Made by a program: the position numbers and the translations under genes. Under the pieces are notes generated by a model. That model saw nothing but the letters and a program-made list of their open reading frames with translations, did no database searches and was not told where the DNA came from. A DNA stretch of 64,000 nucleotides from Spiroplasma endosymbiont of Atherix ibis (GTDB taxonomy: Bacteria > Bacillota_I > Bacilli_A > Mycoplasmatales > Mycoplasmataceae): contig NZ_OZ026474.1 in the NCBI RefSeq assembly GCF_964020005.1, positions 310,001 through 374,000 on the forward strand. Reading direction: 5' to 3'. Positions 7,718-17,383 of the stretch are shown piece after piece (the stretch's first letter is position 1; each line of letters starts with the position of its first letter).

Positions 7718-7754
7718 AAGGTTCCCCCTATAGAGGGAACGTTTTTTTTTTTTT

Positions 7755-8403
7755 TTATCATTTTTTATTTATTCTAATTTTATCATTATTATAAAAATCT
7801 AATCATGCTCATGCTATTTTTAAGCATTGATTGATGTTTTCAATATGACATGTTCTTATAGTTTCATCTTTTAAACGACTATGAAAACTTTCATGCTTGC
7901 CATTATGATGAGTTGTTCCTGGTTTTGAATAACTTCTAATGATTTGCAAATCATTACATAAATTTATGTAGTTTTCAGAAGTATATTGATTTCCATTATC
8001 TGAATGTAATAATATTGGACCTAAATATTTTTTATTTTTATATGCCATTTTTAAAGCTTCAAGCACAAAATTTGTTTTTTGATTATCTATTCTTTTAGAT
8101 TTTCCTATTATTTCTCCAGTTAAATTATCTTGAACTGTGCAAATATAACCTTTTTTTGTTTTAACTGAAAATTGAGTTATGTCACTAGTTCAAATGTTTT
8201 CAAATCCCATTTCTTTTGCTTCTTTAAGATAATTTTTTCTAATAGTTTCTTTATATTTTTTAATTTCATGTTTATTTTGTTTCTTAATATAATATGCAAT
8301 ATGATTAAATTTTTTAAATATATGTTCTAATTTTTTGTGATTTATCCTAAAAGGTTCAATATAATTCAATTTAAAATATAAAGATCATCTTTTAGCACTA
8401 TAA
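7755..8403 (-). pseudogene. IS-A transposase orfB, C-terminal fragment
   Basis: rve/DDE integrase core on the minus strand: first Asp in WTSDITQF, second in LHSDNGNQYTSENY, and the Glu in HHNGKHESFHSRLKDE. C-terminus AWAWLDFYNNDK. The DDE triad is intact, but the N-terminal part of the protein is separated by IS-B, so the gene is broken. Internal TGA codons are Trp. Stop is TAA at 7755-7757. Confidence 0.85.
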
Positions 8404-12797: not shown

Positions 12798-14005
12798 AAG
12801 AAAGAAATATAAGAAGAACTATAATTACTAAATTTGGAGAAGTTACTTATAAAAGAACAAAGTTTATAAATAAGTACAATGGTAAATGTAGTTTCTTAGC
12901 AGATCCATATATGGAAATAGAAAAATATCAAATAATATCATTTTCTTTAGAAAAAGAAATTATTGAATCATTTAATCATGGTGAAAGTCATATTATAGTT
13001 TGAGAAAAAATTAAAAAATCAAATATTACAAAAAGAACAATATTAAATATTTTAAAACGAAATGCTAAATTTGATTTTAAAAATTTATATTTATCTAATG
13101 AAGAATTTAAAAATGATTTACCTGTTTATGTGGATATTGATGATTGTTGAACAACAGTTAGATTTAAAAATAAAAAAAGATGATTTAGAGTTAGGGTTGC
13201 TGTTGCATATCAAGGAAAACAAAAAGAAGGTAAAAGAAATAAATTAATTAATAAAAAAGTATTTTTAAAAACTTTTTTAAAAGATAAGTCATGTAATACT
13301 TATGATTATTCATATTGATTAAAAAACGAAATAGAAAAAAATTATGGAAGTTTAACTAATAAAAAATTTGTAATTTGTGGAGAGGGGGCAAATTGGATTT
13401 CAGAAATTGCAAATAATTTAGGAGCGGAATTTGTTTTAGATAAATTTCATTTATTTCAAAAAATATATTTTTGTTTTCCTTATAAAAGAAGTAAAAATAA
13501 AAGTAAATTAATGAAATTATATGAATTAGCTATTGATAAATATAAATCTAAAAATATTAAATCTTTAATTAATTTTTTATCTGAAAATATTGATTCAATT
13601 GGTTTAAAAAATGAAAGAATTAAGGAAACTATTAAATATATTTCAAATAATATTAAAGGAATTGAAAATCATTTTAAAGATTGATATATTGGATGTTTTG
13701 CTAAAAGTGCAGTAAGTCACCTAGTGAAATCCATTAAAGGTTATGGAGCTAAAATTTATAATAAAAAAACATTTGAGTTACTTATTAATTTAAAAGCAAC
13801 AAAAATTAATAATATTGATATTTTAGAAATAATTTATTTTAAGTTTAAAGAAAATTTAGAAGATCAAATATATGATAATTTAAAAATGTTTATTCCAAAT
13901 AGGCATAATAATTTTGTAAAACGAAATTTAAAATTAGCTAAAATTCCTATTTTGGATTCTAAAAAATCTTCATATAATGAACTAATTAGAAAATTAATAC
14001 ATTAA
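12782..14005 (+). pseudogene. UPF0236 / Mbov_0401-like ICE transposase, start unclear
   Basis: A continuous frame of about 400 codons (TGA as Trp) in the right length range for the family. Key parts: ITKFGEVTYKRTKF near the N-terminus, LPVYVDIDDCWTTVR (first Asp region), FVICGEGANWISEI (usual form GDGAxWI; here Asp is Glu) and AEFVLDKFHLFQ (second Asp). The first in-frame ATG is at 12911, inside the conserved region; upstream, only non-ATG starts exist before a stop at 12749. So the N-terminus seems lost or frameshifted. The Asp-to-Glu change in the GDGA motif also suggests inactivity. Confidence 0.72.
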
Positions 14006-14323: not shown

Positions 14324-14349
14324 TCACCCCCTTAATATTTCCCACAACC
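14324..14349 (-). repeat. Right terminal inverted repeat
   Basis: Core CACCCCCTTAATATTTCCC, inverted relative to the left end with two mismatches in the 18-bp core. Confidence 0.7.
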
Positions 14350-14357
14350 GTCAAATA
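14350..14357 (+). repeat. 8-bp direct repeat, right flank
   Basis: GTCAAATA, exact copy of 10230-10237. It also forms the left arm of a small palindrome (TCAAATA...TATTTGA, 14351-14368). Confidence 0.65.
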
Positions 14358-14364
14358 AAGCTAT

Positions 14365-14393
14365 TTGATTTTTTTTTTTTTTTTAAATATAAT
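14365..14393 (+). promoter_or_regulatory. Promoter with T-tract spacer, upstream of the GH18-like lipoprotein
   Basis: TTGATT (14365-14370) and TATAAT (14388-14393) are separated by exactly 17 bp, of which 14 are T (14371-14384). Homopolymer tracts in this position drive on/off switching of surface lipoproteins in mycoplasmas (vlp-type promoters). Here it may do the same. Confidence 0.6.
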
Positions 14394-14426
14394 TAAAAAA
14401 TAGAAAATAATTTAGAGGAATTATAT

Positions 14427-17383
14427 ATGAAAAAATTATTAAGCATTTTAGGAGCATTAACTTTAACATCGTTACCTATAACTTCTGTTGCTAGTTGTTT
14501 TTCAAGTACTGGTTCAGATAATAAATTTGGAGATTTTGAATTACAAACTGGAAATAAGTGAAAGGGAAATGGTCAAATTTCAGAAGAACTTACAAAATTA
14601 AAATCTACTTCTGTAAAATTACAAAAATTACAAGATGTTTTGTATACTGATTATTCAAAATCAAGTAAATCAAATTATTTAGCTAATTTATCTAATATTG
14701 AAAAAACATTAGGTTATAAAAATAAATTAATTAAGGAAAAATATCTTCAAACTAAAGATCATTTAAAATTTAATCCTTATACAGATATGGGTATAGTTGA
14801 AGATACTGCAGAATATTTAATGAAAGATAAAGGTGTAGGAGGAGCTAATAGAGCTAAAGCAGAAAAATGATTGGAAGGTAAAAACAATGCTGTTTATAAT
14901 GATGTAGGTGAATATGTTACTAAGTACTTTAATGATGGAAATCAAGAAGGAAATGGTATTAAATTAGGATTCATGCAAAATGCTTCAGATACTGGAGAGT
15001 TATTTCCTATGTGAAATGCTGCTCCTTCACAAGGAAGTAAAAAAGGTATTTTAGAAACAGGAAAAAAACAAAAAATATTACAATATCTTTTGGACCATTT
15101 GCAAATTCATTATGACATACTGCATATATTAATAATAAAACACCAGAAGAATTAGCAACTACTATTAAAACTGTTGGTGATAGATATAAAACAAATAAAT
15201 TTGATTTATATTTTTCAGCACCATATTTAGCTAAAAAAGGTCAATATGGAGATTCTCAAAGATTATTGGCAAGTGCTTTAAAAATTTTAATGGAATCAGA
15301 ATCAGGATATGATATTACATTATCATTAGTTGTTTCAACTAAAGATGGTGTTGGAATTAAACCAGAATGAACATCAATGAAAGAAGTTGGAGATGAAGGA
15401 TATCCTTTATGAAATTTTATAGAATATTTAGGTATGAATTTTAGATTAAATTTAATTACATATTTAACTAATAGTCCTGAAAATGGATCTAAATATGAAA
15501 CTGATTGAGAATTAAAATTAATTGAAGAAGCAATTAAATCAACTAGAACTAATTGAGGACAAATGTATAAAAATATTCATGGAAATGATTCGGTTTCTTA
15601 TACATCAGAATAAATAAGTAGAAGAATGTCAGTAACACCATGAATTGGAAGAAGAGCTGAAGAATCAGTTTATAGTTTTACAACAAAAGATGCTGCAGAT
15701 TTAAGAGAATTTGCAGAAAAAGAAAAATTAGGTCAAATATCAATGTTTTATATTTCAAGAGATATTCCATCTTTATTTGAACCTAATAAAAAATCAAAAC
15801 AAGGTGAACAGATTTATGGATTAGCAGATAAAAATGAGTTAGACCAAAATATTAGAAGTGGTGCAGGTTATAAAGCTAATTCATTCTCAGATCTTTTAAG
15901 TGGAAAAGCCAAAATAAGTTCTGAATTAGAAAGAGAAGCTAAAACAAAAGAAGAAATTAAAATAAATGGTGGTATAGATTATAAAGATGATATTTTAGCA
16001 AATAAAACTTTAATACCAGAATCAAATGATAGTGGAAGATAAGAAAATCCAGGAGTAGATCCTGAAAATCCAGGAGGAGGTTCATCAGGTTCAGGCAAAG
16101 GAGGAGGAAATATATTTCCTCCAACTCATCCAACTGGTCCAGGAGCAAGCTTATATAAAAGTTGAGTTCAAGCAAATCCAAATCGTAAAACAAATATTAC
16201 AAATAAATTAAAAGCAAATGGTTCTACATATTTCTCACCTTATTTAGATTCAGGATTGTATGAAGGAAATAATATTGAAGGAATTAGAAAAGGAGTTTCA
16301 GGTTTTAATAATTTAACATTATCATTTGTACAACAAGTAAATAGCAGTGATAATAAAGAAATAGATTTATCAATTGAAGGTATTCCTAACAAAGATGCTA
16401 ACTATGAATATTGAGAACAATATCAATTATATGAAAAAATGTTAAAACCGATGATAGAATCAAATAATTTTGAAAATATTAAAGTAGCTTATGGAGGAGC
16501 AACTACTGTTGGATATTTAGAAAAAAATCCATGAGATGTTGCTTTAAGAATGACAGGATCACAAAGAAGTTCAACTGCAACTGCAACTCCAAATGAAATT
16601 AATCAGGCTACTAGTTATTTAGAAGCTGCATTAGTTAAATATCAAGAAAATTTAGCAAAAATTGCAACAAAATATTCTAAAAAAGAACAAAAAATGCCAA
16701 AATCAATAGATTTTGATATAGAAGGTCAAGCACAATATCAAGAAGATGAATTAAAAGTACTTGGAAAAACAATGGCAAATATGAAGAAAAAAGATTCTTC
16801 ATGAGACTTTTCATTAACTCTTCCTGTACTTCCAACAGGTTTAACAAATGTTGGATATAATGTAATGAACATTATCAATAAAGAATTTAAAGCAGCTGGT
16901 TTATCTCAAAATCAAGTTCCAATTGTTAACTTAATGTTAATGGATTATTTTGATCCAATTTATGTTAGTGCAAAAGCAAAAGGAGAAACAAACTTTGATT
17001 TAGCAAAGCAAGCAATTGAAAATACAAGAAATAATTTAGCTACTTCTTTAGAAGAAAATTGAGGTACTATAGGAGTAAAAGCTAATAAATTATATTCATT
17101 AATTGGAGCAACTCCAATGATCGGTGTTAACGATACTGTTCAAGGTGTATTTACTCTTGAAGATGCAAAGGAATTATATAATTATGCTCAAGTAAGAAAT
17201 TTAGCATATATAGGAATGTGATCAATGAATGATGATAGAGGAAGACAGAATAATAGACATGTTAATAAATCCCTTGTTACTCATGGATTAGCTTATTTAG
17301 AAGAATATGATTTTGCAAGAGCATTCTCTGGAGATTGAACAGATAAAGTAAAAGTTCCAAGAAAAGAATGAATTATTAATTAG
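14427..17383 (+). pseudogene. Large lipoprotein with two GH18-like (chitinase-type) domains, broken in three places
   Basis: Signal peptide MKKLLSILGALTLTSL ending in lipobox SVASC. The frame is lost in an A7 tract at 15062-15068 (one more A restores it: TKNITISFGPFANSLW), and two in-frame TAA codons follow at 15611 and 16040. The restored product would be about 985 aa: a first GH18-like domain without an evident catalytic Glu, a Pro/Gly linker (about 16043-16160, PGVDPENPGGG), and a second domain with the GH18 signature DFDIEG at 16709-16726, plus TLPVLPTGL and YIGMWSMNDD strands. Intact relatives are secreted chitinase-like surface proteins of insect-associated Spiroplasma. TAG stop. Confidence 0.75.

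Follow-up and report, generated by a model that had tools for sequence, protein, structure and literature searches.

A T16 tract in the spacer of a candidate promoter ahead of a decayed lipoprotein gene belongs to a genome-wide class of long T tracts in a Spiroplasma endosymbiont

In the Spiroplasma endosymbiont of Atherix ibis, an uninterrupted run of 16 T separates two promoter-like boxes upstream of a lipoprotein gene. The arrangement raises the question of whether the tract could switch the gene on and off by changing length, as in the vlp system of Mycoplasma hyorhinis. We analyzed a 64,000-nucleotide stretch of this genome ("the window"; NZ_OZ026474.1, positions 310,001 to 374,000), which has a G+C content of 23.7% in a genome of 1.07 Mb. 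Coding sequences were read with TGA as Trp. The features at the locus, in window coordinates, are:

12911-14005, + strand: ISLre2/UPF0236-type, Mbov_0401-like transposase of the upstream element (NCBIfam E 2e-67, Pfam E 1e-12)
14338-14345, + strand: right end TTTCCCAC of this ISLre2-type element, an end common to other copies
14350-14369, + strand: inverted repeat GTCAAATA-AAGC-TATTTGAT adjoining the T run, a possible terminator hairpin or chance
14365-14370, + strand: -35-like box TTGATT, whose last two T's double as the first two of T16
14369-14384, + strand: uninterrupted T16 tract, with 14 T's falling within the 17-nt spacer
14388-14393, + strand: -10-like box TATAAT (10 of 12 consensus matches in a promoter scan, the -35 box included)
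14414-14419, + strand: Shine-Dalgarno-like AGAGGA, with the start codon 7 nt downstream
14427-17383, + strand: GH18-like lipoprotein pseudogene, with a first open frame at 14427-15155 (242 aa) and the remainder in another frame
15064-15074, + strand: site where 100 bp present in the sister genome have been deleted between copies of an 11-nt repeat, shifting the frame (two overlapping blastn blocks)
15611-15613, + strand: in-frame stop TAA
16040-16042, + strand: in-frame stop TAA

The preliminary description had reported the two boxes 17 bp apart, 14 T between them and a full run of 16, and all of this is exact in sequence and coordinates. The spacer consists of T14 followed by AAA, that is, 14 of its 17 bases are T. 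Taken alone, the geometry of the boxes is at chance level in such A+T-rich sequence. The exact hexamers at 17-nt spacing are expected 0.28 times in the window and found once, with at least one occurrence in 25 of 100 shuffles, and the looser TTGA/TATAAT pattern occurs 6 times against 7.9 expected. Unlike its flanking boxes, the T16 run exceeds chance: homopolymers in the window reach a maximum of 9, above which there are only this tract and one T15 (7742-7756). The T15 comes just after the stop of an IS3-type transposase gene, and is T14 to T16 in the copies of that element. The end of the upstream ISLre2-type element lies exactly 19 nt before the TTGA box, a spacing shared by a second ISLre2 copy at the tract at 527264.

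The gene behind the boxes had been described as a large GH18-like surface lipoprotein. A lipoprotein signal with its cysteine is present (MKKLLSILGALTLTSLPITSVASC); the LP_plasma score is 23.1 bits for the copy in this genome (cut-off 24) and 27.6 bits for an intact orthologue. Single sequences of the lipoprotein gave no GH18 match in Pfam, and "GH18-like" holds on the strength of a profile built from eight orthologues, which hits solved chitinases (exochitinase 9buf, 2e-27; chitinase 2dsk, 2e-13). The assignment stands for the lipoprotein signal and the relation to chitinases, but the gene is broken. We interpret it as a pseudogene of which a first frame of 242 aa remains. The intact target gene of a vlp-type switch was not found at this locus, given the 100-bp deletion, the two stops and a dN/dS of 0.43 against the sister genome G008 (two intact gene pairs gave 0.12 and 0.24). 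No test placed the gene as a paralogue of the main lipoprotein family.

Intact orthologues of about 955-1,013 aa occur in 13 congeneric Spiroplasma genomes; in a further one, G018, the match is partial and contains stops. No T tract was found in any of the orthologue promoters read, including that of G008. The corresponding sequence of G008, a genome of about 87% nucleotide identity, reads TTGAAT-17-GATAAT and its spacer is of mixed composition; we therefore consider the T16 to be derived. The gene had been regarded as one expected to vary; with all the orthologue promoters read lacking a T tract, no such variation is seen across the genus.

Genome-wide, we identified 67 T tracts of at least 10 nt: 43 T16, 15 T15, one T17, one T14, two T11 and five T10. 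Thus 60 are 14-17 long, seven are 10-11 long, and none has a length of 12-13. Under a first-order Markov model based on the window, about 13 tracts with at least 14 T and about 310 with 10-13 T would be expected in the genome, so that the genome has too few tracts of intermediate length and too many long ones. The sister genome has 85 tracts of at least 10 T, all 15-18 long except for two T10, and in G006, G007 and G015 all such tracts are at least 14 long. Within the genus, 19 of 20 genomes carry tracts of at least 14 T; within the order, 149 of 198 do. The modal length is species-specific: tracts of at least 19 T are absent from G015, G016, G077 and G120, and they account for 40 of 66 tracts in G176 and 48 of 53 in G060.

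Lengths of 14-17 are seen at promoter and non-promoter sites alike, IS elements included. At G000:C1:388377-388408 and 580914-580944, T15-T16 runs directly into A16, forming a perfect, intergenic T-A inverted repeat. Similar pairs occur in G001, G002 and G008, and the pair at 388377 is kept in G008, where it has a short spacer. The T16 at G000:C1:8435 (L039) is immediately 3′ of a sequence that, by eye, resembles the conserved part of SRP RNA. Three T16 tracts (G000:C1:644962, 682480 and 894853) lie within open frames of 190-314 aa on the opposite strand, where variation in coding-region length is possible. A scan of viral contigs for TTGAY-T15 matched 30 contigs.

The preliminary description had also pointed to the other lipoprotein promoters of the genome. 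TTG[AC] directly upstream together with a -10-like box no more than 7 nt downstream was found at 17 of 46 long tracts (the genome set minus IS3-type element copies and near-duplicates, which includes related paralogues, so that the 17 are not fully independent) versus 4 of 470 T6-T9 runs in the window (p = 3e-16). The tract is common to paralogous promoters: this genome has 18 TTG-type tracts and G008 has 24, and at least 8 of the 18 precede ORFs with a lipobox. Genes of other kinds also have an upstream tract, for example the arginine deiminase gene behind the tract at 529621. After the -10 region of most lipoprotein-type tracts there is a leader of approximately ATATCAATTTGAATTGTTTATTTG (13 of 18 in this genome, 20 of 24 in G008), with examples downstream of the promoter-type tracts L047, L076 and L196. 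This leader is absent from the focal promoter. Among the 18 TTG-type tracts, the spacing to the best -10 box ranges from 12 to 20 at present lengths, with 14 the commonest, and TATAAT at 17 occurs only at the focal site and at 613237. Were promoters here to work at a spacing of 17, the majority of those with a tract would be OFF in the assembly and the focal one ON. We also considered a conserved operator, GTCAA-N4/5-TTGAC, located before the tract in 10 of the 24 promoter-type tracts of G008. We do not claim it, because the G008 carriers are related paralogues and the motif is rare in this genome.

In this genome, IS elements of three types end 16-34 nt (mostly 22-25 nt) before the TTG box in 18 of 22 promoter-type tracts, compared with 4 of 26 other tracts. 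In G008, IS ends are near 10 of 24 promoter-type tracts versus none of 48 others. They may reflect targeted insertion or the duplication of IS-lipoprotein units. Sites of this arrangement include:

window 14338-14370; elsewhere in this genome 186148, 324369, 460718, 507750, 527264, 529621, 631811, 633601
continued: 647841, 665582, 681555, 692448, 705687, 731765, 980577

Evidence that these tracts change length comes from repeated and orthologous sequences. Among 12 copies of the IS3-type element, the tract is T14 in one, T15 in seven and T16 in four, and the closest pairs of copies differ by 14-16 substitutions per approximately 1,245 bp (the copies at 317742, 535616 and 812875 have no full-length alignment). 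Most T6-T7 runs are constant across the copies. Since the long tracts vary between T14, T15 and T16 and the shorter runs barely vary, we consider the class to be slippery. When orthologous tracts of this genome and G008 are compared, about a dozen show length differences of 0-2 T; three others are T10-T11 here and T16 in G008. As sequence comparisons, these data show length change over evolution, not switching in culture.

The focal tract is a genuine member of this slippery, promoter-associated class. With it, the T14-T17 tracts of the genome number about 60. About 20 of these are similarly placed in promoter-like sequences, many of them before lipoprotein genes. In the model that we favor for the locus, and to which we give equal credence and doubt, T16 is a derived feature of this Spiroplasma lineage that forms the slippage-prone spacer of a sigma-70-type promoter and provides control on the principle of vlp and vmm. 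Loss or gain of T would shift the spacing between the -35 and -10 boxes and thereby transcription. The focal promoter is predicted to be ON at its present length because 16 T's give the 17-nt spacing. With its gene decayed, a switch that still worked would control only the 242-aa lipoprotein remnant.

The strongest competing explanation is that biased slippage pulls T runs above a threshold length to a species-specific set-point, about 16 here, with no regulatory role at this site, and that the focal tract arose in a promoter already losing its gene. Given that tract lengths are species-specific and that the same lengths occur outside promoters, such a mutational set-point may explain the focal 16; for the latter reason, the length of 16 is no evidence of tuning to this promoter. 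The near absence of lengths 10-13, the modes that reach at least 19 in most tracts of G060 and G176 and not at all in G015, G077 and G120, and the broken state of the focal gene all fit this explanation. However, it does not account readily for the strong enrichment of tracts between promoter boxes, nor for the approximately dozen tracts kept at orthologous places although their flanks have diverged by about 10%. We regard it as possible but doubtful.

The hairpin directly before the T run makes a terminator role possible. Under this explanation, the T run would supply the U-tail and 14350-14369 the hairpin of an intrinsic terminator for upstream transcripts, and the resemblance to a -35 box would come from the 3′ arm of the stem. 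The GTCAAATA/TATTTGAT stem folds at -5.1 kcal/mol (z -5.1, none of 200 shuffles as good), and some long tracts of congeners, for example in G001, G002 and G006, come after hairpins. However, the stem is A+T-rich and was not listed by a terminator scan that needs three G-C pairs. Such an inverted repeat occurs at only 3 of 18 promoter-type tracts of this genome, the hairpin is 58 nt upstream of the lipoprotein start, and the sister genome is promoter-like at this place. We consider a terminator unlikely. That the length is a sequencing or assembly artefact is very improbable: homopolymers are error-prone and a near-constant length is suspicious, but the same gap recurs in many genomes with modal lengths that differ, up to at least 19, orthologous tracts of similar length exist in G008, and the gene lesions include a 100-bp deletion, which is no base-call error.

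Returning to the spacer switch, it is a sound reading of the class, and the best one. For the focal locus, the preliminary proposal of a vlp-like switch is only partly supported. In its favor are the exceptional T run, the enrichment of the class in spacers, the instability among IS copies, the similar promoter of the sister genome with its 17-nt spacer, and the GH18-like lipoprotein nature of the gene. Against it are the chance-level geometry of the boxes, the broken gene, the tract-free promoters of the orthologues, the runs of about 16 T at non-promoter sites and the hairpin that allows a terminator; in addition, most promoter-type tracts place their best -10 box at 14 nt, not 17. Judged from sequence, the focal promoter is plausible, and switching there is a prediction.

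In M. hyorhinis, insertions and deletions in an adenine tract of the promoter switch the vlp genes (Citti and Wise, 1995, reviewed in PMC10502178). The tracts reported here are similar in being long A/T homopolymers in promoters of surface lipoproteins, carried by many paralogous genes. In contrast to vlp, the focal homopolymer is T on the coding strand and the host is a Spiroplasma. The gene behind it, a broken GH18-like one, stands apart from the main lipoprotein family and has tract-free orthologues; its switching is only predicted. In M. mycoides, the vmm gene is switched by a dinucleotide repeat that lies in the spacer of its promoter (Persson, 2002, reviewed in PMC10502178). It shares with the focal site a repeat in the promoter spacer of a surface lipoprotein, whose change in length controls the gene in vmm, but the repeat here is a mononucleotide. 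In M. gallisepticum, vlhA has GAA repeats about 40 nt from the core promoter (PMC6258824). It is comparable in that a large family of mollicute lipoproteins carries a repeat-length feature in its promoters, and differs in that its repeats are outside the core promoter, whereas the homopolymer here is between the -35 and -10 boxes. We found no report of vlp-like switching in Spiroplasma in the literature searched.

The single focal promoter carries little weight because its gene is broken; the class carries more. Spacer tracts of uniform T16 length throughout Spiroplasma would add this genus to those with vlp-like switching. The uniform, species-specific length of the tracts is the more interesting result. 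With the missing lengths of 10-13 and the modes that differ between species, biased slippage versus selection on homopolymer length becomes testable. More tentatively, Mycoplasmatales may hold T tracts at a species-specific set-point (about 16 here and at least 19 in some genomes, with 10-13 nearly missing), and in Spiroplasma these tracts may have been kept at conserved regulatory positions. They would then form a genome-wide, slippage-based regulatory layer that extends beyond lipoproteins to genes such as arginine deiminase and a dehydratase-like gene.
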